A DNA stretch of 64,000 nucleotides from Owenia fusiformis (Eukaryota > Annelida > Polychaeta > Sabellida > Oweniidae): the NCBI GenBank assembly GCA_903813345.2, contig CAIIXF020000010.1:4457169-4521168 (forward strand), written 5' to 3'. Each line of letters starts with the position of its first letter. Positions within the stretch are counted from its first letter, which is position 1. Both the position numbers and the translations under genes were made by a program. The notes under the pieces are model-generated. The model had not been told where the DNA came from. It was given only the letters and a program-made list of their open reading frames with translations, and made no database searches. This document shows positions 2,962 to 25,830 of the stretch, piece by piece.

Positions 2962-2963
2962 TA

Positions 2964-4005
2964 CAGGGTGTCCAATAAATAAGGTGAAAGATATTGTAAC
3001 TTTCTTAATATTGCACCAATCTTGGTGAAATTTTCCGAGTTTGTAGCCCAAACCTTTTTACCTTTATTCTGTGAATTTAAAGCGTCTTCTATATGATTGG
3101 CCAGAGTTGTGGTTGCTATAGTAACCGAAACAACAAAAAGGCGGGGCAAGTTTGTTTACGTCACAACTTTCCAAAACATATTTATTCTTTCTGATAGCTT
3201 TATTCATACTCCAAGGTCTATTACTACCACAAATACAATATAAAACAGTCCTAAAGTCCAATTGTTATGAAAATAAGCTATTCAATATAATATCCATCTC
3301 TAGCTACATGTATACACTTCTTATGCCTATTCACCCACTCTCTAAACACACTTTCAAACCCATAATTGCCCATTTCCTGAAGTCTTGCTAAGACATGTGA
3401 TCTGAGTTCATCAGTGCTTCCAAATTTATTTCCTCTCAAGTCACGCTTGAGTTCTGCATATAAGTAAAAGTCATGTGGTGCAATGTCTGGGGAATATGGA
3501 GGGTGTGCAAGTAGGGGTAGCCCCAGTACCCTAATAGCTTCACTCCTGAGCATAGCTGTGTGTGAACTTAGATCACATGTCTTAGCAAAACTTCAGGAAA
3601 TGGGCAAGAATGGGTTTGAAAGTGTGTTTAGAGAGTGGGTGAATAGGCATAAGAAGTGTATAGCGAGAGATGGACATTATGTTGAATAGCTTATTTTTTA
3701 TAACAATGGGACTTAAGAACTGTTTTTATATTGTATTTGTGGTAGTAATAGACCTGGGTGTATGAATAAAGCTATCAGAAAGAATAAATATGTTTTGGAA
3801 AGTTATGACGTAAACAAACTTGCCCCGCCTTTTTGTTGTTTCGGTTGCCATAGCAACCACAACTCTGGCCAATCAAATAAAAGACGCTTTAAATTCAAAG
3901 AATAAACGTGAAAAGGTTTGGGCTACAAACTCTGAAAATTTCATCAAGATTGGTGCAATATTAATAAAGTTACAATATCTTTCACCTTATTTATTGGACA
4001 CCCTG
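2964..4005. mobile_element. Palindromic (head-to-head) mariner-type element with transposase remnants in both arms
   Basis: The ends are perfect inverted copies beginning CAGGGTGTCCAATAAATAAG, each flanked by TA (2,962-2,963 and 4,006-4,007), the Tc1/mariner target duplication. Reading inward, both arms carry the 3' end of the same transposase gene. On the minus strand (3,553-3,278) a mariner catalytic-region signature HPPYSPDIAPHDF is followed by the C-terminal tail. On the plus strand (about 3,567-3,689) there is a second copy of the same C-terminal tail ending in a stop. Neither arm has the N-terminal DNA-binding half, so the element is non-autonomous and arose by inverted duplication of a mariner 3' end. 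A fragment of the same family lies at about 37,968-38,100. Confidence 0.85.
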
Positions 4006-4007
4006 TA

Positions 4008-4890
4008 CATGTAAAAGTACGTCCAGAAAAATGGTTTCGAAAATTGTTTTTTTGAAAATGTGACCCCTAACTTGATTCCTCATAGACCCCATGTTACCAA
4101 ATCACAAAAAGTTAAATATCTTTTCTTGTATTGGACAGATAACATTTTCTTTTACTGGACATATTTTGATTTGCATAACTATAAGATACATAAGAGTTAT
4201 ATAAAAATTGAACCACTAAAACAGATGTAATTTAAGTTAAAGGGAACTTTCTACTATACCTGCCTTGTTATCTGACCCGAACGAGCCACCTGGTGGCGAA
4301 ACTAGTAACTACCTACTCGCATCTGCGTTATTTCCTATATAAAGGTAGGCTTGTTTGTACATAATTGCCTTTTATTTTAAAGAAATATGTTATGTATGTT
4401 TGCAAAGATATTTTGTCCAATAATGATGGGCAAACAAATATCTTTGTATGTGTTAGTTTGGGTTATTGGAGGTTTGTTTTCCAATTGACTGATTGTGTTC
4501 TTTTTCTGCTCTTTGGTCTTAATCTTGACAATTCTTAATGCCTTTTTTCTTACTAATAAGTTCAGTACAGTTGAGAATGGAACTAGAATAAATTATAGTT
4601 AAAAACCATGTAGTTTGGTAAAAGTTGAATTTACTTGTGGCTTAAAGTTTTGCAATAGGCTAACCTCTACCTGATGTTCATAAACCATTCTATGGAAGGA
4701 TTTCAAATTTTCAGACATGTATTTCTGTAAGAAAACTCTTAGCTCCTTGACTATGTTTCATTTTTTGTCTTGATATCTTGTTTCCAAAGTCTTGTCCTTT
4801 GTCAAACTTTGGTATAGGCTTTCCTTTTAGTGTAGGTATTGGCTACATACAAGTAATACATTGATGAACACAGCCAATCTCCAACAGTAC
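4008..4890. other. Intergenic, no gene recognised
   Basis: AT-rich non-coding sequence; nothing further supported on either strand. Confidence 0.4.
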
Positions 4891-4893
4891 CTA

Positions 4894-5930
4894 CCTTACA
4901 GTACCATTTTGGCTACAGTTCTGTATGGTTCCATAAAATATGGTACTGTAAGTACTGTAGACTAAAACAGTATTACCCAGTACCGTGAAAACTATACAGT
5001 ACCTTACTTGGACAGTACCATCATGGGCTTTCTATTGCATGCCCATGGTACCATTTAGTATCATACTCTTAATGTACAGTACTTGTCTTGAATGGTACCA
5101 TCCAGTATCATACTCTTAATGTACAGTACTTGCCTTGAATATTACCATCCAGTATCATACTCTTAATGTACAGTACATGTCATGAACGGTACCATCCAGT
5201 ATCATACTCTTAATGTACAGTACTTGTCTTGAATGGTACCATCCAGTATTATACTCTTAATATACAGTACTTGTCTTGAACGGTTCCATCCAGTATCATA
5301 CTCTTAATGTACAGTACTTGTCTTGAATGGTACCATCCAGTATTATACTCTTAATATACAGTACTTGTCTTGAACGGTTCCATCCAGTATCATACTCTTA
5401 ATGTACAGTACTTGTCTTGAACAGTACCATCCAGTATCATACTCTTAATGTTCAGTACTTGTCTTGAATGGTACTACCCAGTATCATACTCTTAATATAC
5501 AGTACTTGTCTTGAACAGTACCATCCAGTATCATACTCTTAATGTTCAGTACTTGTCTTGAATGGTACTACCCAGTATCATACTCTTAATGTACAGTACT
5601 TGTCTTGAACGGTTCCATCCAGTATCATACTCTTAATGTACAGTACTTGTCTTGAACGGTACTGTCCAGTATCATACTCTTAATATACAGTACTTGTCTT
5701 GAATGGTACCATCCAGTATCAAACTCTTAATGTACAGTACTTGTCTTGAATGGTACTATCCAGTATCATACTCTTAATGTACAGTACTTGTCTTGAACGG
5801 TTCCATCCAGTATCATACTCTTAATGTACAGTACTTGTCTTGAACAGTACCATGCAGTACCATACTCTTAATGTACAGTACTTGTCTTGAATGGTACCAT
5901 CCAGTATCATACTCTTAATGTACAGATTGG
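4894..5930. repeat. 47-bp minisatellite array
   Basis: From about 5,050 to 5,930 a 47-bp unit containing CAGTATCATACTCTTAATGT and ACAGTACTTGTCTTGAA repeats about 18-19 times with point differences between units. The preceding 150 bp (4,894-5,045) is rich in the same GTAC-containing words and may be the seed. Unit-to-unit variants (TGGTACC, CGGTTCC, CAGTACC, GGTACTACC) recur in ordered blocks, which suggests secondary duplication of multi-unit segments. There is no coding potential. Confidence 0.9.
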
Positions 5931-6230
5931 AGGTGTATGGCTCAAGGGTGTGATATGGTGAACACTGTGTGATGCTCTTGAAATTGTTATTCTGCTCCTA
6001 GAAAAACAAATTAGATCAATTACAAGTTCAAGATGTTTCTGGTAATGCAGATATACACAAATCTGAGGATGTATTGCACACTTCACGTTCTTGTTAGACT
6101 ATTGTGTTCTGAAAGTAAAACTATAGTGAAGTGTTTCCAATACAATAAATCATACAGAAATTAATTCCAGTAGTGCTATAAATAATTGACATCAAATACA
6201 TAGTGCAGGCCTATTAGTTGGACTAAATAA

Positions 6231-6785: not shown

Positions 6786-7504
6786 ACCAGAGAGATGAAC
6801 ATTCATAGAAATAAAGAAATGTGTTTTCGCTCTTGAAAGTCAATGGTTCGTGATAGAATTTTCTGGTCTATAGAAGTAGAAATCAATGGTTTTAAATGTT
6901 GTGTGATAGTTTTTAAATGTTTGGCTTAATGTTTTCAGATCATCTCTATCAGTTTAGTATTATCACAGAGAAATCAATAGACATAAACTTAGTTGATTTA
7001 CATTGAAACGATCACTTCCTACATTAATGATGTGGCGAGTGAGGACAAAGTGCAAAAAGTCAATATTTACATCAACAAAAAATAACTTTCATTGATAGCT
7101 TATTAAGTATCGGATAACACTTTCACCTAGACATCATTTCAAAACAGTTAAGCTAAGTGAAATTTCGTGAGTGAGAAAATTAAGAAGATCACTAATTATA
7201 ACTTGTATGAGACAATATATGATGTTTTCTTACATATATTGCCAATTTATTGCTTTTTAAAGTGCAACATCGGTATTGAATTTGACAGTTTTAAGTGTCA
7301 TTTAAAAATGACGAAATTCACAATTACTGATGGGAACTTATTGATGAATTAAATTAATTATTTGTTGACTTATACAGCAGAACAAACATGTTATAGATGT
7401 GAAGAATGAAAGTGGCACACTTAAAAGATATATTGTTGACTAAATGTTTGACAATTAATTGAATTGATTAGTGATAAGATTTGAGTTGGACTACAATTGT
7501 GAAA

Positions 7505-10500
7505 ATGTTGAGAAAAAAAGCTACACTGTGGAGTATATACCTGGAATACGTCATACTCCTGATACCATGTGTCTTGTCTGGTAAGATTGAAAGTTTTTCT
7601 TTTTAAACATCTTGCAAGATCAATGTTTTAATTGTAATGTATCCAATCATTAAATATTTTTTGATTTATCTATTAATTTATGTTCCATATTGTTCAACCA
7701 TTGTAGTTAGTACTTCAGTTAAGTACTGTGATTCTGATTGGACAAGCAGCAGTCAATAATTCTAACAGTTGACTGCACAATTCATTCATGGTCAATGTGT
7801 GTTTGTAAATGATGTCACACATGATGTCAAAATAATGAATCAGTGGATGGAAGTTGATGAAAATGACTGTCCAGCTTAGAAGATGGATTTTATTACCATT
7901 AGCCTTTATATCATCGTTAGACTAACAAAGCAATGATAGACTTTTGATTTAGGATTTTTGAGTCAATTTTGAGTCGTACTCAAGATAGGTCATATATATT
8001 TATACAAAGAAGTTACACTGACACCTTCTCCATCTAGTAGCTTGAAGTTCTTTGAATTTATGTTCATGTAGTTGATAAATCTGAAAAAATTGGAAATTTC
8101 ATATTTTTCTAATCTTCTAATGTGTATATAAACATATTTTGAGAAAGTATTGATTTAGATCTATTTTTTTCATGTTCATTACATGTACATACATAAATAC
8201 ATACATACAGTATTTTCAATATTTTTTTTATTCATTTGTAACTCAATATTTACTTTTGTTTCATATTGTTCAATAAATTCCTTCCATATCATTTGTAATT
8301 CTAAATTATGTTATGTCCCCCATGTATGTGTCCCATCACACCATCAGCAATTGTCTGTCTGTCAAATATTCATCATTTATACTACTTGGTTGCATGCTGA
8401 TGTATTCATCAATATTTTGCATTCGAAGCTCCAAATTTGGATTTTCTGAGTGTGGAGAAGTGTTTCATGTCAGTTTCATTTACATTGTTGTTCATCAGTT
8501 GTGTTGATTGGGACGTAGGTTTCTCTCTTTTTCAAGGACTTTTTGCAAATTGATTGACTTGACAAATAACGAACTTTAAAAATTTTGTATTTGTGGAATT
8601 GTTATACACCTTGTCATTTTTTAAGATTCTTTCAATCATAATATTATATTTTTGTGTAATATTATAAATATGTAAGAAAAAGTCTGTTGAAGCACAGTGG
8701 GTGAAATAATAAAAAACAGAATTTAATTTTTGATACATTAAAATGGTATACAGTGAGCCATTTGTTAAAGTCACTCCATTTAGAAACTTTTTCATGTCAT
8801 AAGGACTAAACATATTTGTATACATTAATATATACAATTATTATACTATTGTAAAAGAGCTGTTGAAATTATATAGCTAACATTGTATTTGGTGAGGTTG
8901 CATGTTGAGATAAACACTCGAGGAGTATAACAATATAACAATCAATAAACCTTTTAGAAAGTAGGCATGACATGGAATTATGAGAGTACAAAATTTTGTG
9001 AAATTGTGACAATTTTTTATTTATTTACTTATAGTCTTCAACTTTTTGTGGATGGTGTTCGGTGGTTAGTGTTTTGTGGTCAGCATCTGTAACAAATGGC
9101 AGGTGGTGATATTTTTGTATCAATGTATTGTTTAAGGTTCCTCTCAGATCATCTCTATACTCTTTAGTTCATTTAAAAAATAGTCTTTCATTGCTTTTCC
9201 CTTCAATCAGAATTATGATGTCATCTTTATGACAATTCTAAAACACATTAGTCTAAACCAGCAATATATGGACTTATAACATATGGATATTTTTGGGTTT
9301 GGAAACAGTCTTTCATTATGAACAAAATGAGAGACTGTTTCATATGTATGAAACTATAACTGAAGGGAAACTTTTGGAAAGCATGTTAAATCATTATTTT
9401 TCCGACTCCTTCACGATAAAATTGTCAAAAAGGTTTGAGAATGTGAGGTCAGTTTGATCATTTTTTAATTATTATCTCACCAAGTTTGAGTAGGGATAAT
9501 GAGAAGTCTTCTGTCTGTCCATTTATGAATTCATCCATATGGCTATCCTGACATTAACACAAATACCTTTTGACAGATTCAGTTTGAATTTTATATACTA
9601 ATGCCTTATATGGGCATAGAACCTCTGCTTAGAGAATGAGTTTTCAACATGATGGCTCATTTCACACAAAAAAGTAATTATTTTGTTTACCATGCAGTTA
9701 TCAGATTTTGTTCAAATTTTGTATGGTAATGTTTTTGCTTTAGAATATAAGTTAAATTCTCCCATTATATTTGCAGCCAGTTTCCCTGGAGTGTGCATTG
9801 AGGTGCTCGTGGAGGTGCCACCAGGTATTGCTATATCAGGCTACATTGGGGATGTGTACATATTCCACTCTATGCACAATGATAGGCCGGCTGTCTTCTC
9901 TCGTACCTGGGAAAAATACCTCTACTTCCATGAGTATGGTATGTACGAATATTCATCAATAAAGATTTATTTATTTTTTGTGTGTTTGGCCACAACCTAG
10001 GTCATATCAAACACTTTTCCATCAACAGGATGATCAGTAGTAAAACAAATATTTGAGCCTTAACACAGGAAAACTGGTCTTATTATAAAAATTTTAATTG
10101 AGAAGAGCCAAAAATGTTCCCAAGATTAAGACGAAAATGTGCAAATTCAAATCTGTCTTTTTGGTCTACATCTGCAAGGAGAATGGACATAAGCCATGGC
10201 TCTCTTCACTCTTTGTACCTTTTGAGATAAACAAAAAATCAAAGTATTGAAAAACTCTGTGATAAGACTCGTGGCCCTTTTCCTGTACCCATGCACATTT
10301 TTATCTTTGTGTTTAATTGCAATGTATATGAATACAAAATATTACATAGATAGTACCCCAGACAGACATTTGAGAATCTTGTTATAAATCTGACTATCCT
10401 TTCTCAAATTTAACAGTTTCTGACTCATTTTGAAGCTTCGAGAATTTATAATGACAATTTTTCTCTCTTCTTTAAGAAATTTCCAAAGCTTCAAAAAAAT

Positions 10501-13500
10501 CCAGAAAATAATGAAAGCTAGTTGAAAGTAGGAGAAAACTGCTTTGATAGAATAATAATAAGAAGAATAAATAAATAAATAAAGAAAAGCTACAAAAGCT
10601 ATAGGAGGCCCTTTCAGGAGGGCCTCCTAATAAGATTAAGAAAGGATAGCCAGATATATCAATACTGTATTCTCAAATGGATATCTGGGGTACTATGCAT
10701 ATGTGAGCGAGTTCATTGTCAATGATACAATGTATACCGTAAGATCAATTGAGGTACAATATTGTATGTAATGCCTCAAGTCTCTCCGGTCCCTAGGTCA
10801 ATCCTGCTACTTAGAAAAAAATATTCTATGTTTTTGCATTTTATTCTTCCTTAAGTACATTTTCCATTATGGCATTTGTTAACTTTTGTTGAATTAAGGA
10901 TAATTGACCGCTAAAGAAGTTCATCTTCAAAGTCTTCGTCAGTGTAATTTTCCCTGTTACAATACTTAGCTATTTAGAATGTTATGTTAGTAGGAGGTTT
11001 GTTTGATATCAAAACAAACATTATCTGTCGTGAAGGAGATAGTTTGAAATGCATTTTGTGCTTTATAGAAGGATTCTATGATAAATGTTCGAAATTATGG
11101 GTTCCATCCCTTATTCTGAAAGTCATTAAACATAAACAGAGCTACAGTTATAACTGGCTTTTGTGCCTTGCCCTAAGGGGTGTATTCAATGATATTACCC
11201 CTGCTCTGAGGTCTATATTACGATTGAACATGAAAACTCCCCAAAATGACATTTCAAATATTTATTATGGTCTGCCATTACTAGGGCCCGGCGTTATATA
11301 CCAAGGGTATTGTTCGCGAATATACCCCGGGTGAAATGTTGACTTTGTTTACAGTTTATAGAAGGCGTGAATACAGTCATGTTCGAATATACTCTAACTT
11401 TCTTTAATGTTCTTCAATTCAGCTGAAATTTTGTGTATATAACAATTGAAGTTTTATCTATCATATCCTGATGTTTCAGCATCAAAGATTAATATTAAGT
11501 CTTAATATGGTTGCTATAGCAACATGGGGGTAGGGGTGGGCGGGGCAGGTACCAATTTTTCTAATTATGGAAAGATCCAAAGTGTTGTTTTATTAATATT
11601 TCTTTCTTTTAAATGATCAAAATGTTTGGGAAATTGTTACATTTATTCAGCATGATGTTAATCAAGTACAAATAATGACATTTAGCACTGTCACAAATTC
11701 AAAATCAGTCACAGTCAAGAAATTGCAAAAATGGCTGCAATTCTCACCTGATATCAGAAGGCCTTACGTTTGGTGGCCTAATTTCATACTTCACTTGGAC
11801 TCACAGCCACGCAAAACGTATGCTACCATGAACAAAGTATAAAAGGAGTATATACCAGATAGAAGTACAATTATGAGGTGGCAGAAGAGATTTAAAAGAG
11901 ATTACTAGACCCTGGATGAAAGTTCCAAACATGGGAGGCAAAAACTCCACAAGTCACAGTGGAAGAAATTACTAAGAGTGTTTGACCTGACAGGCATCAA
12001 AAGTACATAACATGAAAAGGGCAATATTTTGAGAAAATGTGAAATGAGACACGTGCAATATACTTTCATTAAATCTAGAGGAGGTGCTCATAGTAGTTTT
12101 AAGTTTCTTAAAATGTATTTTTTAGCATAGTTCTTATAGCTACACAAAATGGTATTTGTTGATTAATTATTTCATATTTTAAATTTTTTATTCCTTTTGA
12201 TGTGACTGGTTAACCTGCCCCGCCCTACCCAAACTCACCAACTTGATTTTATTATAACATCAGTATATTTTTATTAATCAACATGAAAAATTGTAGAATA
12301 ATCAAAATGTATCTGAAGATTTCATGGAAAAATATCAATTAGTGATAAAGTTAGAGCATATAGTGCATTACTTCTGGGACAACCCTCGTATAATATGCTC
12401 TGCTTATGAATCCTCTTAAATGCAGGGTACAGGTATTTTCCAAAAAGTGTACTCTGTGAGTGATGTCAACTGCTAATCATGTGAAAAGTCCAGCTTTTTT
12501 GATGAAGGTAAAAAAAGTTATTCCCATTTCATTTGGGTACAATTTTTTGGGACACCCAGTATGTCACCATTCCTGCTTCAACAGACAGATATCTTTACAC
12601 ATTGACCTCAACCTGAGTACCCTTGAGTAGTTTTTAACAAGAATTGCTCTAAAGTGCATTTTATCAATATCCTGTATTAATGTTGATTTAGACATTGGAT
12701 AAATAATCATTAAATAACATTAATGTGTCATCATCTACAATGTATGTCTGATAAAACACAGGCATCCAGTCTACAGAATGATTATATGCCTGTGGTTTCA
12801 CTCCAATATACTTCTTAATACCTATGTGCCACGCCAAAGACCCCATTTTTGAGCTTTTTTCCATTTCAATTTCCTCTCAAGATTGAAGGTTTCCATGTTT
12901 TATTCCTCCCAGCCTTATAAAATACCAATTTCCCGAAATATTTTCCAGTGATTTTTCCCAGGTCTTGACAAATGATTTAACCAATTTATAACCATTTTTA
13001 AAAAAAACTTATTTTGACCTAAAAGAGGTACCTTGAATTGTGTTGCATTTTTTTCAAATGATGATACTAATCTTTTGTTGTTCACTTGAATTGTGTTGCG
13101 TTTGTTTCAAATGATGATACTTATCTTTCGTTGTTCACTTGAATTGTGTTGCGTTTGTTTCAAATGATGATACTTATCTTTTGTTGTTCACTTGAATTGT
13201 GTTGCGTTTGTTTCAAATGATGATACTAATCTTTTGTTGGTCACTTGAATTGTGTTGCATTTGTTTCAAATGATGATACTAATCTTTTGTTGGTCAGGTT
13301 ACTGGATGATTGGGAACACCCTTGGGGTTAATGGTGCATTTGTCTCAGTGTACAGCCATGTAGTGAACCCAGAAGATGCGCAGCTGACTAAGAACTGGAC
13401 CTATTGGGGAGATAACCAATGGAATGTGGAACCAAGAATCAATGTCACCTGCTGTGAGTAATAAACACATCTTCATATTATTTTCTCATTACCTCTTGTA

Positions 13501-15938
13501 TGCAGTTATTATGTCACCACCGTCACCACCAGAAGTGGTGAAATTGTAATACTCTAAAACATTTCTGTGGATGGTGTTCAGAGTCCAGTGGTCGGCATTC
13601 AGAGTTGACAATAGATATCCGAAGGCCATGAGGGAGTGTCATTTATTACAAAGTTTATGACGCAGATTGTTGTTAGAATTTCTATAGCTGGATACCAGGA
13701 AATCTGATATCCTTTTTGAAACAATAGATAGAAGGGATATCCTCATCCTAATAGAAAAAAGGATGTGGAAGTGTTTCAGTCTTCAATAGTTTGCCAATTT
13801 ACAATATTGAATTTGGCTTAAAATGATATTATAATTGTTTGTTTTTACGTAAGCTGTGGAATGGTTTATCTGTTTATTAGAATAATGGTGCAATTATTGT
13901 GACTTATCATATGTACAGGTATGTTGTGATCAATAATATTTTAATTAAGAAAATCATCTTTCATATATAAGTCTATGTCAATATGTTTTTGTAGTAACTG
14001 TGATCTTATTAGAATGTTTGCAGTTGGGTAATTAACAAGGTAGCTATTTTGTTCACTATTATCTTGTTATCTGTAAAGAAATTCTTAATTTTTTCTCTTT
14101 TAACACAATTAAGAGAATTTAGGGTACATTTATCTGAGCATAAATTTTTATAATTGAAATTGCTATTTTGTGTTTTTATCCCTTCGAACGAAGTTCGGAG
14201 GGATATAGGGAACGCCTCCATCCGTCCGTACGTACATCCGTACGTACGTCCGTCCGTCTGTCCGTCCGGGCAATAACTCAAAACCGTTGGCCCGATTTTG
14301 TTCATATTTTGTACAAATATAGCTTATGGGGGTAGAAGTTCTGCTCGAAAGCCGATTTTCAAAATGGCCGCTCATTTCAAAATGACGGCCATTTTAGTGC
14401 CGATTTTACAGTAATTTAGGTGCAATATGTAAAACTGTAATAGCAATATGTTTTAAATGTAAAAAAATTATAAAGGACAATAATAATGCTACAAATGTAG
14501 ATATTTAAGAAGCACATGGCAGCCATCTTGAAAAATGGCGGCCTTTACTCGTCATTTTACGATTTTTGCTGTAACTCAAAAAATAGTGGAGCGATTTTGT
14601 ATATATTTGGTATGTCAATACTATAAGCATTGCACACTGTCCTATGACACTTTTGGTAGAAGGCGGCCATTTTGTAAAAAATTTTGAAAAATGGGCGCGA
14701 TTTGTTCATATTTGGTATGTGAATACTATAAGCATGGCACATTTTCCTATGACACTTTTGGTAGAAGACGACCATTTTGAAAACTGTCTATTTCTAATGA
14801 CACTTTTGGTAGAAGGTGGCCATTTTGAAAAATGGCCGCCATTTTAACGATTTTACTATAACTCGAAAAGTAGTGGAGCGTTTTGTTCATATTTGATATG
14901 TAAATACTTTAAGCATGGCACATTGTCTAATAAAACTTTGGGGAGTAGTCGGCCATTTTGAAAAATGGCCACCATTTTTATGTGTGTTATTTTACAAGTA
15001 CGTGTGCGATTTTTCAAATATTTGAGAGGTGGCTACTTAAAAGCATATTATTTCTTCCTGATGACAACTTGGCTAGTGAGCAACCATTTTGAAAATGGTG
15101 GCCTTTCTGGTGTGTTGTTTTATGATATTTGCTATTCGTTTGTAAAAATGCCAGCCATTTCTGTTCGATGGGATTCGGTACGCTTTGGCGTTGCCGTTGT
15201 TCTGGTTATTATCTATATTAGCCTTAGGTAATTTCCATTGGTCATATCCTATTTTATTTGGTACTGTATTTATTTATGTATATGTTCCTTCACAAATGTA
15301 AATGTTCTTTCAGTAAATGAGACTACAATGTTTGTTCCTGATCCTACAACAGCTGCTATGGAAACAACTGTCAGTCAATCTACTACCCTAGTAACTGGCT
15401 CTGTTACCTTAACAACAACTGAATATGAGTCTACTACCCTAGTAACTGACTCTGTTACTTTAGCAACAACTGAAAATGAGTCTACTACTGTAGTAACTGA
15501 CTCAATTACTTTAGCAACAACTGAAGATGAATCTAGTACCCTAGCAACAGACTCTGTGACTATAGCAACAACAACTGAAGGTAAGTCTTCTACCACAACA
15601 ACAACAAGCATAGATGTCACATCTGAAAGTACATAAAGCATGAGATTATTAAGGCTTGTAGCCAAGTGTCAAAAACTTTATGATTTGAAGAGATTAGTTC
15701 TACTGATCGTTTGAATTTGTGTTTACTTTATGGGCCATATTAGGTCTTTGATTCCTGATTGTTGCCCATTTGTTTTTACTTTTCTTTTGATTTTGATTCT
15801 TTTGATTTTGACACTCTTTATTTCTTGTGCTTCCTCTAAAGGCCATAAAGATATTTTATGTCCATTGTTACAACACGACTGTACTTGTTAAGATTAACAT
15901 TGTTTGCAGAGAACTCAGCTGTATCAGGGTGTAAGTAA
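7505..15938 (+). CDS. Copy A: predicted secreted paralogue of an unnamed receptor-like family, 229 aa
   Basis: Five exons: 7,505-7,580; 9,777-9,938; 13,298-13,453; 15,314-15,580; 15,910-15,938 (stop TAA). All introns are GT-AG and phase 1, and the frame closes. Exon 1 encodes a signal peptide (hydrophobic YVILLIPCVLSG). Exons 2 and 3 (residues 26-131) form an extracellular domain with landmarks FPGVCIEV, GDVYIFHSMHND, KYLYFHEYG, YWMIGNTLG, NPED and NVTC, with N-glycosylation sequons. Exon 4 is a Thr/Ser-rich stalk with four 17-residue repeats. Exon 5 matches the start of copy B exon 5 (ENSAVSG versus ENATEPG) but stops after nine residues, so the transmembrane helix and tail are missing. If the exon 4 donor is not used, the frame instead stops at 15,634-15,636 (238 aa, also without a helix). 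AATAAA lies at 16,006. I do not recognise the domain by name. Function unknown; probably a soluble extracellular glycoprotein. Confidence 0.75.
8160..9770. other. Intron 1 of copy A, repeat fragments only
   Basis: AT-rich intron. Around 9,030-9,115 is a fragment of the GTGGATGGTGTTCGG / CAGCATCTGTAAC family also seen at 13,507-13,620, 24,440-24,530 and 36,745-36,870. At about 9,474-9,660 is a repeat containing CTCACCAAGTTTGAG and CTGTCTGTCC. No exon beyond those of copy A was found. Confidence 0.45.
10351..10695. mobile_element. MITE with TAGTACCCCAGA inverted ends
   Basis: The element runs from TAGTACCCCAGA (10,351) to its exact reverse complement TCTGGGGTACTA (ending 10,695). The inverted similarity continues inward, with TTTGAGAA and CTATCCTTTCT on the left matching AGAAAGGATAG and TTCTCAAA on the right. 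A short internal palindrome, AGGAGGCCC..GGGCCTCCT, sits at about 10,602-10,629. No ORF. It lies in intron 2 of copy A. Confidence 0.75.
11380..12395 (+). mobile_element. Degenerate mariner/Tc1-like transposon with broken helix-turn-helix transposase N-terminus
   Basis: At about 11,705-12,005 the plus strand reads, with several stops, a helix-turn-helix-like transposase start. Visible pieces include WPNFILHLDSQPRKTYATMN, RSTIMRWQKRFKRD and KHGRQK, the pattern of mariner-type DNA-binding domains. Inverted sequences flank it: GGGTAGGGGTGGGCGGGGCA near 11,530 faces its complement near 12,210-12,235, and TCTAACTTT near 11,392 faces AAAGTTAGAG near 12,348. No catalytic domain is visible. A decayed element inside intron 2 of copy A; its ends are approximate. 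Confidence 0.5.
13030..13297. repeat. 53-bp minisatellite that contains the copy A exon 3 splice acceptor
   Basis: A 53-bp unit (TTCACTTGAATTGTGTTGCG, then TTTGTTTCAAATGATGATAC, then TTATCTTTTGTTG) starts at 13,081, 13,134, 13,187 and 13,240, with a partial unit before. The last unit runs directly into the acceptor TTTTGTTGGTCAG of exon 3 (exon begins 13,298). Earlier units end in TTGTTGTTCACTTG at the equivalent point, so each resembles a mutated copy of the 3' splice region. Copy B has a single, non-repeated version before its exon 3. Confidence 0.85.
14170..15130. repeat. Dispersed repeat with CCGTCCGTACGT block and GGCGGCCATTTTG tandem units
   Basis: The region starts with a CATCCGTCCGTACGTACATC / CGTCCGTCTGTCCGTCC block followed by CAATAACTCAAAACCG. 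Then come four to five degenerate units containing TTCATATTTGGTATGT, TATAAGCATGGCAC, ACACTTTTGGTAGAAG and GGCCATTTTGAAAAATGG. A related copy with the CTGTCCGTCCGTCTGTCC block lies at about 50,960-51,530 in CCDC15 intron 2. The ORFs across this region are repeats, not genes. It occupies intron 3 of copy A. Confidence 0.75.
15376..15580 (+). repeat. 51-bp coding repeat (four units) in copy A exon 4
   Basis: Four in-frame units of 51 bp (15,376-15,426; 15,427-15,477; 15,478-15,528; 15,529-15,580, the last with an extra triplet) encode 17-residue Thr/Ser-rich repeats of the type ESTTLVTDSVTLATTEN. Copy B has about one equivalent unit. This is an O-glycosylation-prone stalk that expanded in copy A, or contracted in copy B. 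Confidence 0.85.
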
Positions 15939-16005
15939 TGTCACTTCATTTTAAGCTGATTTGTGAGATCGGAAGGAGGATTAAGTGGTAAAGCCAAAGA
16001 AGCCA

Positions 16006-16011
16006 AATAAA
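16006..16011 (+). terminator. Candidate polyadenylation signal of copy A
   Basis: AATAAA about 70 bp downstream of the exon 5 stop codon at 15,936-15,938. Supports copy A ending here as its own transcript, but not decisive alone. Confidence 0.4.
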
Positions 16012-16159
16012 TGTGGGTTGAATGGAGTGTTAGACATTGTTTCCTTGTGCTATACATGTACATCATTTCGCAACTTTCATTTTTTCAGAACTTTTTGAAA
16101 TTCCCCATAGGACTGATAATTATTTTCAGAAGTGATTTGTCTCAAGTAATTCCAAATGA

Positions 16160-16803
16160 CAGTATATAAATAATGCATGTCAAATACACAGACAGGTCGA
16201 TTAATAGGACTAAATTAACAATGAACCAGCATATAAATCAAACACAAAATACAAAGTAATGTGTCTGTAACAGAATTCTATAGTTAATAGACGTAGCAAT
16301 TGCAAGTTTTAACTGTTGTTTAGTGGTTTTCAAATGTTGCGATTGGTGTGTTCTGAGTCACGAGAGAATCAATATAGACGAGAAATAGACGCAGACTGCC
16401 GCTAATTCACATTCAAATCAGCACTTCCTGAAGACGACATTGAGAGTGAGAAGAACACAAGTGCAAAAGTCAATATTTATATCAACAAAAATAACTTTCA
16501 TTGACAGCTTAATAAGTATTGGATAACACTTTCAGAAATACATCATTCTCTAGGAAGTAGTGCCAGAGTGAGACTATTGGATCACTGAGTATAACTTGAA
16601 ATGTATAAGACATAGGTTTCCATACATTCTAACTATCCATATATAGCGCACCATCGATATTGGATTTGTGACAGCCTGAAGTGTCTTAAATACAAAGAAA
16701 CTGGCAATTAGGAAGGAAAACTTTTTTAACATGAATAGCTCAGTTAAGCAATTAATTAATAGATGATTAACACTGCAGAACAGTTAAAACAACATTTGTG
16801 AAA
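16160..16803 (+). promoter_or_regulatory. Duplicated upstream region of copy B (paralogous to 6,180-7,504)
   Basis: Words shared in order with the region upstream of copy A include GTCAATATTTA, ATCAACAAAAA, TAACTTTCATTGA, CAGCTTA.TAAGTAT, GGATAACACTTTCA and TATAACTTG. The 5' flank was therefore included in the tandem duplication, so each copy probably has its own promoter. The conserved 16,440-16,610 block is the best candidate for shared regulatory sequence. Confidence 0.5.
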
Positions 16804-19800
16804 ATGTTAAGGGAAGTTACACGATGGAGTAAATACCTCAAATACTTTATACTACTGATTCCATGTGTTTTGTCTGGTAGGTTTGAAAGTTTTTAACCTC
16901 TCAGACACATATCTAAAATAAGATAAAATGTAGTACTGCATATCTAAAAATTTAAATCCTGTTGTTATATATAGAGATTATCCTATATGAGGTTCAGGAT
17001 ATTTTGATTATACCAAGGTCAATATAATATATCTGCCTTGGGGCTGTAGGTCCCTAAGGTAGGTATACTATATTGGCCAAGGTATAATTCCAATATCCTG
17101 AACTGGTGATGAAAAATATAAGTTTTTACAAACCTGCTTTATGTACCTGTAACATGTCCAAGTATGGGATAAATATGATATGATATGATATGATATAATA
17201 CTAATATGATATAATACAAAATAATATAATGTAAATTAATACAATTTTTATGTCATCACCACCAGTGGCGGTTGGTGGTTGGCGATCGGCGTCTTTAACA
17301 AATTCTTACAACTTAAAAAGGTCAAAAAGGTATTTTTTCAACTTGCTTCAAATTGTCCAATTTCTTTTTTCAAAATCATCTACAAGTTCTCAAAAGTTCA
17401 AATCTGGCTATAGGTTTGACCTTAAATGACATTCTCAAGGGGTCAAAAAAGATTTGACCTTCTCAAGGTCAAAAGGGTCTTTTTTCATCTTTCTTCAAAT
17501 TGACCAATTCTTTTTCAAAATCATCTACAAGTTCTTAGAAGTTCAAATCTGACTTTAGATTTGAGATATCACCTTCAATGACCTTCTCAGGGTAAAAAAA
17601 TGTCTTTTTCAACTTGCTTCAAATTGACCAATTTATTTTCCAAAATCATCTAAAAGTTCTCAGAAATTCAAATCTTACTTAAAGATTGAACTCATAATAT
17701 CGTGAGCAAGTAGGAGGTGACATTTTGTCATGTTAATGCCTTGTCATAAATTTGTTATAATTCTAATGACTCATATTTATAAGATCTCAGTATTCAAGAG
17801 TCATTGTGTAACCATAGAAATTTGTTACAAAAATCTGTAATTGAGGGAGTTATTTGGGCAACAGAATAAAAACAGTTAACATTGATCTTATAAATAAATA
17901 TCATTATATTAATCTTATTTGAATAAATAAAAGTTAAATACAATGTACAGTACAATCTATTGCACACTCAGAAACTTTTTTCACTTAAAGTGAGAACTAA
18001 AACATTTACATCAGATGTATTCTATATTGTTTGTTTAATTTAATTAAAGAGGAATGTTGTGATAGAAAAGCACAACCAAGACCCCCTGGACTTTTTTATA
18101 TGTTTTGCTTACCACTTATTCAGCTATTTACTTACCAGAACAAAGAATCCAAAAACTGCCATTTTATGTGCTAATTTTGCGATTTTGCTGACTGGCCGAA
18201 TTATTTTCATTGATATTAATTATCTGGAAGTTGAATATACCAATGCGATCCATATGTTATCTGATTGGTCATTAAATTTGTTGATCAGTATGGAATAAAT
18301 GGCAGTTCTGAAAAATTCTAAAAGAAATTAAAAACCGCCTTTGAATCTGATTGACTGCATGGCTCAATAGGCATGTGTCTAGTTTGCCGACGCTCGTGTG
18401 CTGGTGTCACTTGACACTTGTCACTTGGGTTTTCCCTTGATTGCCGCGATCGAATTCAATTGTGTTCAATTCTGACAGTTGGTTGTTCTGTTGATTTTCT
18501 CAATATATTGGGAATACTGTATACCATAAATTGGTCTCAAGATATATCTAAGGTATGTAAGATATTTTATAAGCAATTATAATGGGACATCACTGATTGT
18601 CCGTAAGAGAAACCTATGGAATACTGTATCTTTAACAATTTCTCATTTTAACACAATAAAAGAGTCAATACTTACTATTTCTACTGAAAACAACCTGCTC
18701 TTTCTTCACATGATTGAACTTATAATTAAAGAAAAACCTGGGAAATCACATTAAATCATTAGACTCATTCCTTTGACACCTTTTCAATAAATAAAGAAAA
18801 TCTTGGAGAGGTTTAATAAAAGGAGACTTGGTTAACAGGGCAGTTTCTATTTGATCTAGGGACCTGTAATTTCCTGTACTGTATGTCTTGTCTAATTGGA
18901 TTTAAGCCACGGCCCAGATATGAGATTTACGTCTTTATGTTTAAGCCAGGCCCATAGCCAGGGGGTTTCGATAGATTCAAGCTCATGCAGTTTTTCACCA
19001 TTCTGAGGACTTTTTAAGTGATTTTGACCATTTTTGAAAAAAAATTGTCAAAAGTTAACCCCCCTGGAATTTTTAAGAAGTCAACTTGGCAAAGCTGGCT
19101 ATGGGCCTGTATGGCCAGTCATTTTAACATGTTTTGCAATAGTGTTTCCCTGGAGGGTCATTGTGTCATCCATAGCCAGTACGATCCCTCACAAGTTAGA
19201 TAAAGAGAGACTCTGTTAAATCAGAATGCTGGGGATGTTTTAATTCAAATCAGCGAGAATCACGAAGCGATTAACTTAACAGTAAACACTCCAATGGTTA
19301 GGAAATGACAGCAAATCAGCAGTTTCATTCAAATTGACTGATCGCCCAATGATTTTTTTCATGAGCATGAGCTACATTAGGTTGTTTCATGTCATCAATC
19401 ATGCCGATTATGTTGACTGAATCCATTAGTATTTCAGATTGTGATAAATAGCAGAAAATGTAGCACAAATTCAGGATAAAACCATACGGTAGCGAGGTGT
19501 ATAACTAATGTAATAAGAATCATGATTTTTGCTTCTTATTGAAGAACGTTTTCAATTATTCTGTGATACATTAGTAGTTCATAATAGTGACATTTCGTGA
19601 TATTAAACGTGATACTTTAATGGAACATGAAGCAATATTGATAAAGATATGTGTACTGAGTCTGAATTTTGAGAATGTCAACATTCTTGAGGTGGCGACA
19701 AACTTACAAAATATCCCAACAGGCAAATCATGATCACAAAGCAATCTATTTGGTCTCATCACAAAGAACAATTATTTAATTTTTCTGGATATTCAAGATC

Positions 19801-22800
19801 ATTAGAGACGTAGATAGATCAAAAATATTTTGATTAATTTATTGAAAATAAGGTTTAATGTCGTCAAGGACTCAGTGGAAATATTTCTTTATCTTTGTAA
19901 TTTCATTCTCTTGGAATGAGATTGATTAAATGAATAGATTTGTATTTGCAGCCAGTTTCCCTGGAGTGTGCATTGAGGTGCTTGTGGAAGTGCCTCCGGG
20001 TATTGCTATATCTGGCTTCATTGGGGACGTGTACATATTCCACTCTATGCACAATGACAAGCCAGCTGTCTTCTCCAGTGCAAAGGACAAATACCTCTAC
20101 TTCCATGAGTATGGTACGTACCAATATTTATCTATGCATGTTTGTTTGTTTGTTTTTTGTCTGTTTAGGCAAAATGCAAGGTGTAATGGGTTATCAATTA
20201 ACAAATACCATAGAATAGCGTGACGGAAAAAGTGCCTACATACCCAAAAGTCAAGTTACCATAGTAACCATTTTTTGGTGAGCTTAATTAGAGATGCAAA
20301 TTATTTTTAGGCTAATTGTTTAAAACAGTGTCATAACAACCTCATTTCACCCATTGCCTATCAGCCATTAGTAGCCTATGGTAGGCACTATTTGGCATTC
20401 AAGAATCTCCTCACCAATGCATCATACAAATGCAAAATATTGATACAGTAAAACATATGTAAGTGTAACACCTTTGGAATCTCAAAATAGTGTTCCATTG
20501 GGGGGGGGGTGTTTCACATACAAAGGTTACATTAAATTAATTGATAGTAATTGATAATAGGACTTTGAAAAGTGTTCCACCTGAGATGTTACACTTACAG
20601 GGTTGTTACACTTAAAGAGGTGGTTCAATTAAAGAAGTTTTTCACTTATAATACAGTTCCATTTAATAGGTGTTTTATTTATAATGCTGTTCCATTTCTA
20701 GAGGTGTTCCACTAATAGAGGTGTTTCACTTATAGAGGTGTTCCACTAATAGAGGTGTTCATCTTATAGAGGTGTTCCTCTCATCGAGGTGTTCCATTTA
20801 TAGAGGTGTTCCACTAATATAGGTGTTCATCTTATAGAGGTGTTCCTCTCATCGAGGTGTTCCATTTATAGAGATGTTCCACTAATATAGGTGTTCATCT
20901 TATAGAGGTGTTCCTCTCATCGAGGTGTTCCATTTATAGAGGTGTTCCACTCATAGAGGTGTTCAACTTATGGAGGTGTTTCACTTATAGAGGTGTTCAA
21001 CTTATGGAGGTGTTTCACTTATAGAGGTGTTTCACTTATAGAGGTGTTCCACTAATAGAGGTGTGCATCTTATAGAGGTGTTCAACTTATGGAGGTGTTT
21101 CACTTATAGAGGTGTTCAACTTAAAAATGTGTCATTGTATTGATATGAACATGTGAGACATATCCAGGCAGCAATTGTCGATGATGTAATGTATATTGTA
21201 AGATCAATTATATCTGATCTCCTTCACTTGAGAAGAATGAGATATTGTATTTATTGCATCATGTCTCACCAGGCCCTAGGTCGATCCCTCTACTTAGAGA
21301 ATATAATATGTTATTGCATTGTATTAGCATATGCTCTCTAAAATCATAAGCACTTTGCCCTTTATTGTGGTGTTTGTTTGAATTTATTTTTGTTGAATTA
21401 TGAGACATTGCTGAGAGACTGAGGGAATTGATCAGTTGCAAGCTTAAACCCGCTATTTTGAGATATAAGAGTCCCTCATTTTATCTTATGATCGAGTTGT
21501 GTTTTCCAAGAGATAGTACAGGCTATGGGTTACACAATAATGTAATACAGTGAGTACTCCAAAGAATGTCATTTTCTATGTTACAATACTTGACTATTTA
21601 TGAAGTTATGTTAAAAAGCATTTGTTTGATATCAAAACAAACGTGCTGTCATGAAAGTAGGATTCAAGAGCACTTATGCATTAATGTTCCTCGGTGCAGT
21701 TTGATACTTACAACTTTATGTTAGAAAATAGGTCCATCGATTAATTATTCTGAAAATCTGGCGTTTCAAGGAGAGACTTAGTTTCTCCTTTAGGAGATGG
21801 TAGACCCAACAAAAAAAATTAAAGAAAGTACCACATACTGTGTTTAATTTTAGTTTGTAATATTGACTAAAAAAGATTGAAATTGAATTGAATTGAATGG
21901 AAGAGGTATGAGTACATACAGTGAAACCTGTATGACAGAACAATACTGTTTAGATTGAATGGAAGAGGTATGAGTACATACAGTGAAACCTATCTGACAG
22001 AACAATACTGTTTAGGATTGCCTCTCAATATAGATTTATTTTCAAAGAACTTAGTTTCATTGACTAACATGTTAATTAACCATCTATGTACAAGAACAGT
22101 ACTTGTCTCAAAGAACAATACTGACCAGTATGTTTACAATATAATGATTTATCTGCATATAACATAATGCTAAATCATGTCAAAAATTTACAACTGCATT
22201 AAATTTCAACTTTCCACAGCAAACACTCAGATGCTGAAGTTTGTCAAATCATGTAGATTATTTGACCTAACCTCTTTGTGACATTGCTATAATGTTAAAA
22301 TGTGTTTTTACAATATCCTAGTATTATGATATTGATGTTAATGCAATGGATACGCAATCATTTGATATCATCCTCCAGGGGCGGATCTGGGAAAAGATTT
22401 TGTGCCCCAAAAATTCCAAAGTGGGCCCATTTTTGAAATTATGAGGCCCGTTTCCTTCAAAATTTGGTCTGAAATTGAAAAGTATGGCCTATAAAGGCCC
22501 ATTTATGACCAAAAAGGCCCACCAATTCTTTTTTTGGGCCCACCCAAGGGGTGGGGGCAAGCCCCCAGATCCGCTAGTGTCCTCTTTTTCAGTAAACACA
22601 TTTTTTGTGTTAAATGCAGAATGACTCTCTGACTACATGAAAATAGTCATTGTAATTTAAACAGATGGAATGAGTTGTCTGGGTTGCCCATGGACATTGT
22701 TATAAAACATATGAAATAGATTGTTTGGGTTGCCCTTGGTCATTGTAATAAAAAAGATGGAATAAAGTGTCTGGAGTTGATTGTTTATACATTTTTATTC

Positions 22801-25800
22801 AATTAATCGTGTTGATTATTATTTTGTGTATGAATAATGGTGATTACTTGTCTCAGAGAAATGATAATAGATAATTAAATGTCTCTGTAATGATATCCCA
22901 TTCCAATAGTTTCTTCGCAGATTGTGAATGAAAAATTGTATGTGTCAATAACCGGAGAAGTCTGGAATTATTAAGCTGTTTATGCATTAATATTATTTTT
23001 GCAATTTCCATTTAACAAAATGTTGGCTGATGAATGTTGAGAGTAGGATAATATTTTGAGTCATTCGTAATTCCAAAATGTTCACTTATTTGACAAAAGC
23101 GATTAAAAATACTGTAATAACCATTAAACCATGAACACATAAAATACAATCTCTATTATATGTACTGGTATATTATTTTGCATGTACATTTTGTTTGCAT
23201 CCATAAAATTTGACAAAAATCTATTATTTTATTGGTCAGGTTACTGGATGATTGGGAACACACTTGGAGCTAACAGTGCATTTGTCACAGTGGCCAGTAG
23301 AGTAGTGAACCCAGAGGATGTGAAGCTGACTAAAAATTGGACCTACTGGGGAAATAGCCAGTGGAATGAAGAGCCAAGAATAAACATCACTTGCTGTGAG
23401 TAAAAGCGTTTCTTGCACAATTGACATGGAATTTTGATTATTTTATCGAAATGGTAGAAGAGTGAACAAGGGGGTCTGGAGGCGATGTGGGTGGTAATTT
23501 TATTCACCTATGATCTCAATCTATCATATATCTGATTTATATTACGTTTTATATTATATTGTATAATAAAGGTAAATCCATATCCTTACAGAACCATAAG
23601 ACTGACTTCAAAAAGCTTCAAAAGTTCGACACTTTGTAACATTGATTTTGGCACAACATGGTTTTCCTCATTATTTATTTTTACGTCAGAAGAAGGTTTT
23701 GAAGCTTTTGAACTTAAATAATTGTTCAATAATTCCCCAACCCTTTGTGTTTATGTAGTGATCAATAACACTTAGATTGAAAGTATTCCTTAATAATTGA
23801 TAACCAAATCTATGTCAGTATGGTTTTGTTACATCAATGTTCCAATACAGACTTTTTGTGCATCTATGATACACCTGGGGGGTTCATTGTATAAAAACCT
23901 AGTCTACTCGGCGAAAATGATTTGTCTATGTCTGTCTCATGTATCTAAAAATGAATTTCAATGAAATACCTCATTTTTCATATATATCCTTACACTGTCC
24001 AGATACTACCAAGTGAGCCACAAAATGTGGTACATTTATTTTATCTTAAATTATGATTAATTTTGCAGCTTATACTCTTGTCTAAAATATTTTTGAATTT
24101 AAGTTTTTCATTGATTTTATCTAATTAGTTGTTATCTAAAACTTCATAAGAGTAAATGTTCTTCCAGTAAATGAGACTATAGTATTCGTTCCTGATCCGA
24201 CAACAGCTGCTATGGAAACAACTGTTAGTCAATCTGCTACCCTAGCAACTGAGTCTGTTACCTTAGCAACTGAAGATGTGACTACTACAGAGTCTACAAC
24301 AACAATGATAACTATAGATGTCACACCTGATTTACAAGGTAAATTGAGTGTTATTGAGTTATATACATGTACATGTACCTTGAGGTCTAAAAATTAATCA
24401 ATGATAAAGTGTATATCATTTTTAGTGCACATCGGTGAGCTATTGTTATTTTGTTATGTAACCACCAGAAAAGTAAGTCTCCATCTTTTTGTGGATGGTG
24501 TTTGGCATTCAGCATCTATAACTAATAATTACAACTTCCAATAATTAAGCCAGTACTGTTTAGACTGACTTCAAATTTTTACTGTCAACATTTGTATACA
24601 TGTTGACTGTATACATGCGTTTCAACACATTTCTGCCAATATCTGTTACCATTGCAACAAATAAGTGAAGTGTAACATTTTGTGACCATTTGCAATAATT
24701 TTAAGAAGTAGCGTTCACATGGACCTGAAATTTTTATTGGCAACACACATAGACATATTATGACTTTTAACATATTTTTGACAGTTTCAGTTACCATGGC
24801 AATGAATATATGTTACCATGGAAACAGATTATTTTGTGTGACTACTAGGGTGCCCAATTGTATTGTTGCAGTTTTGTAACCATTTGCAATAACAAGCTTG
24901 GTGAGGACATGTATCATGTTAATGCCTTGTTAATATTTGAATATTGTATTCCAACATGCGACTTGATTTCAGAAAATGCAACTGAACCAGGGTATAAGAG
25001 AGCTAAGAGAATAGTTTGGGAGCCATCCGAAGCAGAGGGAGCAGATGCTATGGGTAGCATGTGGCTTATCCTGGTCATCTGTGCTATAATAGGTAGGGTG
25101 CTATGTGGCTTGTCATCATGTACTGTATAGATGTCCCATTTTGTAATTCTAATGGAATAGGACATTTCTACATTTCAGGTCTTCACTAATTTCATTATTG
25201 AATCATATGTCTCAATGTTTTCTGAAAATAAAATTAGGATTATAAGACAAACATTGTCATTTTTAAGATCTTATTCATATGTGTACTTATGTATATACGT
25301 GTCCAAAGGGGTTCCACTCATCCCAAAAACTATTACTTCAAAATCGATAGTACAGTATATATTTGTGAAACCTGATCTGAATTTCATGTGAATGTATGTA
25401 CGTTCCAGGGATTGTCTTATTAGATGTTGGCAAGCTAACAAAACACTTGAAGAGAGCTTACAAAAATATCAAATTTGGATGTGATAAAAATTCTGTTGAA
25501 AGGCATAAAGGTCCAGCTTCTGTGCTGTGTAGTGACCAGCCTGTCCATCATATACCATCACCATATATAGAAACAGAACAGATCCATGACACACCAAGTG
25601 TAAGTGGTGACTCACCACATAAAAATTCTGAATTCAAAGACACACCACTAGGTAACTCTCCTAGTAAGTACATTACCTACAAGACACCGCCAGATTCACC
25701 TAATATGGATACAATTAATGAACTGTCCGAGGAACAGGTAGATGCAGAAAGGAGATTATCCAAACTCTCATTGACTTCTTTATGCAAGGATATAACTAAC

Positions 25801-25830
25801 CTAGACCCCAGACAAAGCAGTGATGTCTAA
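16804..25830 (+). CDS. Copy B: predicted type I transmembrane paralogue of the unnamed family, 367 aa
   Basis: Six exons: 16,804-16,876; 19,952-20,113; 23,240-23,395; 24,168-24,338; 24,973-25,092; 25,409-25,830 (stop TAA). All introns are GT-AG and phase 1; total 1,104 nt. Residues 1-25 are a signal peptide (FILLIPCVLSG). Residues about 26-131 are the two-exon domain (FPGVCIEV, GDVYIFHSMHND, KYLYFHEYG, YWMIGNTLG, NPED, INITC). A Thr-rich stalk follows (one repeat unit). Exon 5 carries a basic RAKR motif at 197-200, an acidic stretch, then a helix (MWLILVICAIIG continuing into IVLL of exon 6, about 217-232). The tail (233-367) is polar, with KLTKHLKR next to the membrane and tyrosines in YITYKTPPDSP. 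It lies immediately downstream of copy A, same strand. Function unknown; the architecture suggests a cell-surface receptor or adhesion molecule. Confidence 0.82.
16991..17103. repeat. Imperfect hairpin, ~50-bp arms, in copy B intron 1
   Basis: GTTCAGGATATTTTGATTAT at the left is the inverted complement, with a few mismatches, of ATAATTCCAATATCCTGAAC at the right. The arms continue through ACCAAGG / CCAAGGT and meet near GGGGCTGTAGGTCCC. A small foldback element; no ORF. Confidence 0.7.
17160..17735. repeat. GATAT microsatellite plus single copy of the AGGTCAAA/TGACCTT repeat family
   Basis: 17,168-17,235 is a GATAT/ATAAT low-complexity run. From 17,255 a repeat begins with GTCATCACCACCAGTGGCGG and contains units with CAACTTGCTTCAAATTG, AAAATCATCTACAAGTTCT and TGACCTTCTCAAGG, ending near GGTGACATTTTGTCATGTTA. 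It is the inverted orientation of the large satellite at 31,700-34,095. Confidence 0.7.
18947..19109. mobile_element. MITE with perfect 15-bp inverted ends CAGGCCCATAGCCAG
   Basis: The left end CAGGCCCATAGCCAG and right end CTGGCTATGGGCCTG are exact reverse complements. The interior matches the repeat at 934-1,104 (ATTGTCAAAAGT, CCCCCTGGAATTTT). No ORF; intron 1 of copy B. No obvious target duplication. Confidence 0.75.
20600..21130. repeat. Short-unit minisatellite (AGAGGTGTTCCAC type)
   Basis: About 30 units of 16-17 bp built on TTATAGAGGTGTTCCAC, with recurring variants (TTCATCTTA, TTCCTCTCATCG, TTCAACTTATGG) forming higher-order blocks of two to four units. It resembles the interior of the CAGTAAAACCTG transposon family elsewhere in the window and may have grown from one. 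Located in intron 2 of copy B. Confidence 0.85.
21893..22018. repeat. Two-copy ~63-bp tandem duplication
   Basis: The phrase TTGAATGGAAGAGGTATGAG through CAATACTGTTTAG occurs twice back to back with a few substitutions. It includes the words CAGTGAAACCTGT / CAGTGAAACCTAT, again resembling the CAGTAAAACCTG family. Intron 2 of copy B. Confidence 0.8.
22377..22577. mobile_element. MITE-like element with GGCGGATCTGG / CCAGATCCGC ends
   Basis: The left end AGGGGCGGATCTGGG and right end CCCCCAGATCCGCTAG are inverted complements. The interior is rich in GGGCCCA and CAAAAAGGCCCA words. No coding. Intron 2 of copy B. Confidence 0.65.
24440..24945. repeat. Fragment of the GTCACCACC...GTTAATGCC repeat family
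   Basis: Starts near GTTATGTAACCACCAGAAAA, includes TTTGTGGATGGTGTTTGGCA and CAGCATCTATAAC, and ends with TCATGTTAATGCCTTG. The same boundary words bound the 31,700-34,095 satellite and the solo copy at 36,745-36,870. It lies in intron 4 of copy B, just upstream of exon 5. Confidence 0.5.

Follow-up and report, generated by a model that had tools for sequence, protein, structure and literature searches.

Organization of copies A and B

The window, a stretch of 64,000 nucleotides of the Owenia fusiformis genome (C10:4457169-4521168), contains two adjacent genes with homologous ectodomains, copy A and copy B, whose exons were located and translated (Table 1). All junctions of both copies are GT/AG. 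All introns are phase 1, as the original prediction had stated for the shared exons. The ectodomains are identical at 90 of 107 residues (84%), and the cytoplasmic tail of B has about 134 residues. Exons 1 to 4 correspond as had been proposed, except that the two exons 4, of 267 nt in A and 171 nt in B, do not match over their full length; likewise exons 2 and 3, described earlier as identical, have the same lengths in both copies (162 and 156 nt) but only about 85% and 83% sequence identity, figures that include a few flanking bases. The 5′ region is also duplicated, and from the alignment of the flanks each of A and B is deduced to have its own copy.

Table 1 Features of copies A and B, numbered from the first nucleotide of the window.
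Feature	Position	Strand	Evidence
Copy A exon 1, with the start and a signal-peptide-like, hydrophobic segment (MLRKKATLWSIYLEYVILLIPCVLS)	7505..7580	+	located, translated, hydropathy; aligns with B exon 1
Copy A exon 2 (162 nt), encoding the first ectodomain half	9777..9938	+	
Copy A exon 3 (156 nt), encoding the second ectodomain half	13298..13453	+	
Copy A exon 4, 267 nt, Thr/Ser-rich stalk, donor AAG/GTAAGT at its end	15314..15580	+	
In-frame repeat of the A stalk, 51 nt (17 codons), 3.8 copies	15379..15572	+	
Extension of A exon 4 when its donor is not used, homologous in part to coding sequence of B exon 4, TAA in frame at 15,634-15,636	15581..15636	+	
Copy A exon 5, encoding ENSAVSGCK (nine codons, the first of them divided between exons 4 and 5), then TAA	15910..15938	+	homology to B exon 5
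GTAAGT within A exon 5, which might act as a second donor and give a 21-nt phase-1 microexon	15931..15936	+	score 2.2 (rough ranking only)
AATAAA with GT-rich sequence after it, candidate signal for polyadenylation of A	16006..16011	+	
Stretch collinear with B intron 5 (25110-25215) and weakly similar to it, perhaps left over from a full-length duplicate, not firm	16037..16145	+	
Flank preceding B, with 71% identity to the A flank (6836-7138)	16253..16547	+	alignment
Copy B exon 1, signal-peptide-like	16804..16876	+	translation, hydropathy
Copy B exon 2, 162 nt	19952..20113	+	
Copy B exon 3, 156 nt	23240..23395	+	
Copy B exon 4, stalk, 171 nt	24168..24338	+	
Copy B exon 5, encoding the basic motif KRAKR, the juxtamembrane stretch and the beginning of the membrane helix	24973..25092	+	
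Copy B exon 6, end of helix with the Asp invariant in the anchor family, and cytoplasmic tail	25409..25828	+	

The copy number of the 51-nt stalk repeat of A may differ among individuals with the frame preserved. Other repeats were found around and within the genes. A 47-nt satellite array lies just upstream of copy A (4904-6049) and a 17-nt tandem array in B intron 2 (20600-21200), and an array with a period of about 135 nt (31695-33999) recurs as its reverse complement in B intron 1 (17315-17689; 84-90% over about 97-179 nt). At 2953-4016, two arms of 293 nt in inverted orientation (95% complementary) surround a minus-strand frame (3281-3592) that resembles a mariner-type transposase, and an open frame on the minus strand at 47002-47361 resembles an exon of a DHHC palmitoyltransferase.

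The 3′ end of copy A

The in-frame TAA at 15,936-15,938 of A exon 5 was confirmed by translation. The predicted resemblance of this exon to the start of B exon 5 was also confirmed, with 27 of 36 nucleotides matching when the acceptor is included (15900-15935 and 24963-24998); of 1000 dinucleotide shuffles, one scored as high. The A sequence at 15589-15626, originally assigned to an intron, aligned with coding sequence of B exon 4 (24293-24330; 0 of 1000 shuffles), and on this alignment the A donor at 15,580 falls within sequence homologous to that coding exon. The B donor reads AAG/GTAAAT and the equivalent position of A reads ACATAAAGC, so that this donor is lost in A. The donor of A, AAG/GTAAGT, lies elsewhere, some 54 nt upstream of the B-equivalent position, and has a higher score, the splice-site scores being based on base weights that allow a rough ranking of sites only. 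If left unspliced, the A frame ends at 15,633, immediately before a TAA. The AATAAA 68 nt past the A stop fits a 3′ end of A but adds little to the case for one, since 0.144 such hexamers are expected by chance in 105 nt, about that length. A cysteine near the end of A, not matched by any in B, is present only if exon 5 is used and might then join two A chains.

Predicted membrane anchoring of B and its absence from A

Signal and transmembrane segments were assessed by hydropathy. The maximum after residue 40 was 0.99 in both forms of A, against 2.72 in the helix of B. In B the anchor module is complete, with the basic motif, a PxEA..A..IG stretch, the helix and the Asp, and the anchor-family profile matched only B within the window; in the A stretch neither the search nor the profile detected a match to the module. 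A scan for helix exons among phase-1 frames behind an AG, from 15,581 to 16,803, yielded two overlapping frames of 30-32 residues at 16,291 and 16,297, both with a marginal hydropathy of 1.68. Equal-length stretches of 26,500-63,000 gave 1.47 candidates each, and the positive control, B exon 5, was recovered at 2.32. The two frames were set aside as a hidden helix exon of A given their background-level occurrence, their marginal hydropathy and their lack of a match to the anchor family; their acceptors (scores -5.8 and -5.6) cannot exclude them, being no worse than that of the real B exon 4 (-5.8).

The earlier statement that no helix exon lies between A and B thus agrees with the scan, which remained at background level and revealed no convincing helix from 15,581 to the start of B. 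Both 3′ ends of A (spliced, 15,936; unspliced, 15,634) give a protein without a recognisable helix, which makes the main proposal of the original prediction, a secreted next to a transmembrane protein, firmer than the argument first advanced for it; the helix of B, its lack at either end of A and the constraint on the shared ectodomain support this proposal at the level of sequence. A looks soluble whether spliced or unspliced, and splicing into B could still anchor it.

Ectodomain family and selective constraint

The ectodomain, of about 100 residues, was searched against the assembly of 498,259,871 bases in 525 contigs, and 49 exon matches were scored at E ≤ 10, four of them being A and B themselves; the best match outside the pair had an E value of 2.1e-6 and 35% identity. 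In an alignment of 16 sequences, comprising A, B and 14 copies hand-chosen from four loci, a Cys, a Gly, a Trp and a second Cys were present in all rows. No Pfam family was found at cut-off for A or B, the 16 ectodomains gave only weak Pfam matches to single members, and an ectodomain profile retrieved no relative among PDB sequences at E ≤ 10. Sequence comparison points to a two-cysteine domain of an unnamed family.

Over the 106 codons of the ectodomain, dS was 0.50, dN 0.086 and dN/dS 0.17 (bootstrap 95% 0.08-0.37). Inclusion of exons 1-3 and the first 30 codons of exon 4 (160 codons, one A-only codon of exon 1 having been dropped to keep the frames matched) gave a dN/dS of 0.20 (0.11-0.34), and the 30 stalk codons alone gave an uninformative 0.49 (0.12-2.29). 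For a copy that had been functionless since the duplication, the ratio would be expected to approach or exceed 0.5. The ectodomain common to A and B is under purifying selection, in a pairwise estimate that cannot tell which copy is the more constrained. In one loop, A and B differ at four residues in a row (ectodomain positions 43-46; p 0.04 when scanned with a window of four residues, 0.14 with a window of five), a difference that could mean different ligands.

The anchor module across the genome

Matches to the anchor encoded by B exons 5-6 were numerous elsewhere in the genome, at a great distance from the window. Matches from three query modules at E ≤ 0.001, once merged, defined at least 54 places on 11 contigs, B included, the searches giving lower bounds. 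With the module reversed as query, no place reached E ≤ 0.05, an empty answer that weighs little; the forward query gave 57 places (its own and B included). We aligned 50 anchors, namely B and 49 places that were fetched, some of them weaker than E ≤ 0.001 and not covering all of the 54. The Asp was present in 50 of 50, a Lys and a Glu in 46 each and a Tyr in 41. A furin-type RX[KR]R site, in B the KRAKR preceding the helix, occurred in 15 of the 50 anchors (B included) and in none of the 776 control windows; a dibasic pair was present at this place in 43 anchors and in 10 of the windows, the control windows being taken from the same frames and consisting mostly of S/T-rich stalk that is poor in basic residues anyway. 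The anchor of B had no Pfam match at cut-off, ten anchors compared with Pfam gave only weak matches to single members, and a narrow literature search, which shows little, found no description of the module.

In a Pfam scan of 16 proteins, we identified in anchor loci Sushi (L001, L040), Lectin_C (L004, and below cut-off L050), Laminin_G_3 (L020), WSC (L021), F5_F8_type_C (L046) and PAN_1 (L053) domains; four copies of the ectodomain family and loci L022, L026, L028 and L045 had no match at cut-off. Sushi domain and anchor share one open frame at L001 and L040, and at L004, L020, L021, L046, L050 and L053 strand and distance suggest that domain and anchor belong to one gene. L001 (C10:6.92 Mb) is the only other gene found to join an ectodomain of the A/B type to the anchor module, as B does; it differs from B in an extra Sushi domain and in RAKP instead of RAKR.

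Copies of other ectodomains were examined for a neighboring anchor. An anchor followed 0.9-2.0 kb downstream in all six copies found of the ectodomain type of L022 and L041, and 1.5-5.0 kb downstream in all six members of a PAN cluster on C4, one of which has a stop inside the PAN frame; the 12 of 12 is favored by the choice of both queries from loci having an anchor, and the PAN count leaves out 40 other rows of that search. Among C2-type lectin matches, an anchor came next in three of seven and the remaining four had none before the next copy, so anchor-less copies may not be rare. In agreement with this, a profile scan of 20 kb of the lectin array there (L054-L055, C2:2786000-2805999) detected five C-type-lectin-like exons and one anchor at one end, compatible with either one multi-lectin gene or several genes without anchors. 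A is an exception in the two subfamilies that could be checked, and is not proven unusual.

History of the duplication

Because the similarity of A to B ends at 15,935, a partial duplication with a breakpoint in exon 5 was at first favored. This was weakened by similarity past the stop and by three tested intron stretches of A and B, which gave no alignment either. In the expected register, the alignment of 16,037-16,145 with B 25,110-25,215 had a score reached by 4 of 200 and 10 of 1000 shuffles and by 2 of 248 other windows. Global alignment of the whole post-stop stretch gave a score reached by 3 of 1000 shuffles and by 16 of 415 other windows, 11 of these 16 sitting in the repeat array near 31.6-33.8 kb, and that of 16,030-16,160 was reached by 0 of 1000 shuffles. 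Similarity was not significant in the part nearest the A stop (72 of 1000 shuffles, 181 of 1618 windows) or in the stretch after 16,146 (828 of 1000 shuffles). With controls so mixed, the alignments lean weakly toward a full-length duplicate that lost its helix-coding part rather than toward a breakpoint. Loss of the anchor in A is likely the derived state, because the 12 of 12 copies in two subfamilies and L001 have one.

Discussion

The exons, the lack of a recognisable anchor in A and the constraint on the ectodomain are most simply reconciled if A and B are tandem paralogues, B being a type I membrane protein and A a released, soluble binding protein for the same or a related ligand, a reading to which we assign a probability of about 0.7. 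B would consist of a signal peptide, the two-cysteine ectodomain, an S/T-rich stalk, the KRAKR motif, one membrane helix and a tail. A would carry the ectodomain of B on a longer stalk, with its stop where the basic motif of B would begin, and would be released from the cell, most likely as a soluble binding protein meeting the same ligand as B or a related one. The predicted protein would resemble the product of B cut at KRAKR, made without the need for that cut.

The same exons might, however, belong to one gene with A as an alternative 5′ part, its ectodomain being spliced either to B exon 5, as a shared anchor, or to B exon 2, as a two-domain receptor. Any A-to-B splice (for instance 15,580 to 24,973) would keep the frame, all junctions being phase 1, and the GTAAGT donors of A at 15,581 (score 7.8) and 15,931, both ranked only roughly by score, could serve it. 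Such transcripts would have to skip the B upstream region and exons, the upstream region and exon 1 are both present a second time at B, and each 3′ form of A reaches an in-frame stop before B; we consider this arrangement unlikely. A could also be a decaying copy without function, given that the anchor and the donor position of B are lost and the sequence past the stop has drifted. Decay is opposed by the upper bound of 0.37 on the ectodomain dN/dS, by a frame still intact at a dS of 0.5 and by the presence of splice sites, and of the alternatives it appears the least probable.

Secretion itself may not be what distinguishes the two genes. Were a proprotein convertase to free the B ectodomain at KRAKR, both would give soluble products under different control, as the RX[KR]R site of B and the enrichment of dibasic pairs in the aligned anchors would allow. 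The furin consensus fails in 35 of the 50 anchors, the basic motif may serve another purpose and the control windows are basic-poor in any case, and we judge this improbable, between splicing of A into B and decay of A. KRAKR could release a soluble form of B too, and this, like the absence of a Pfam or PDB sequence relative for the ectodomain, counts against assuming the decoy/ligand arrangement that had been proposed. Such a role for A is putative, with competition with B, opsonin-like binding and action as a ligand as candidates.

A secreted paralogue beside a membrane-bound one is an arrangement of a known kind, exemplified by CEACAM10/PSG. Soluble family members without an anchor, like A, include LILRA3 among the LILR receptors and decoys such as DcR3, which differ from A in having unrelated folds and a biology that has been tested. 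Zona pellucida proteins are made as membrane precursors with a furin site, their basic cleavage motif lying shortly before the membrane helix as in B, although A and B have no ZP or other Pfam match. CEACAM and PSG domains are of Ig type. Secreted members, CEACAM10/PSG, occur beside CEACAM1 in a mammalian family with membrane-bound ones, as A does beside B; in the horse, secreted forms arise by nonsense truncation, and CEACAM10 has been suggested as a possible soluble decoy (PMC2832619). No homology to A and B is claimed, and CEACAM ligands are partly known.

More tentatively, and with somewhat less than even confidence, the anchor may be an unnamed, exchangeable module of stalk, basic motif and helix, present with at least seven kinds of ectodomain at about 50 places and acting as a platform for sheddable receptors, which A would have dropped to become permanently soluble. 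Less expected than the pair itself is that this anchor is shared, following or lying close to Sushi, lectin, PAN, WSC, F5/8 and laminin-G domains. A role of such receptors in immunity would be a guess; a common juxtamembrane-helix module, not found in Pfam, hints at a class of receptors that are tethered or freed by one shared means, and the A/B pair would offer, on a small scale, a natural contrast between the tethered and the released form of one ectodomain.
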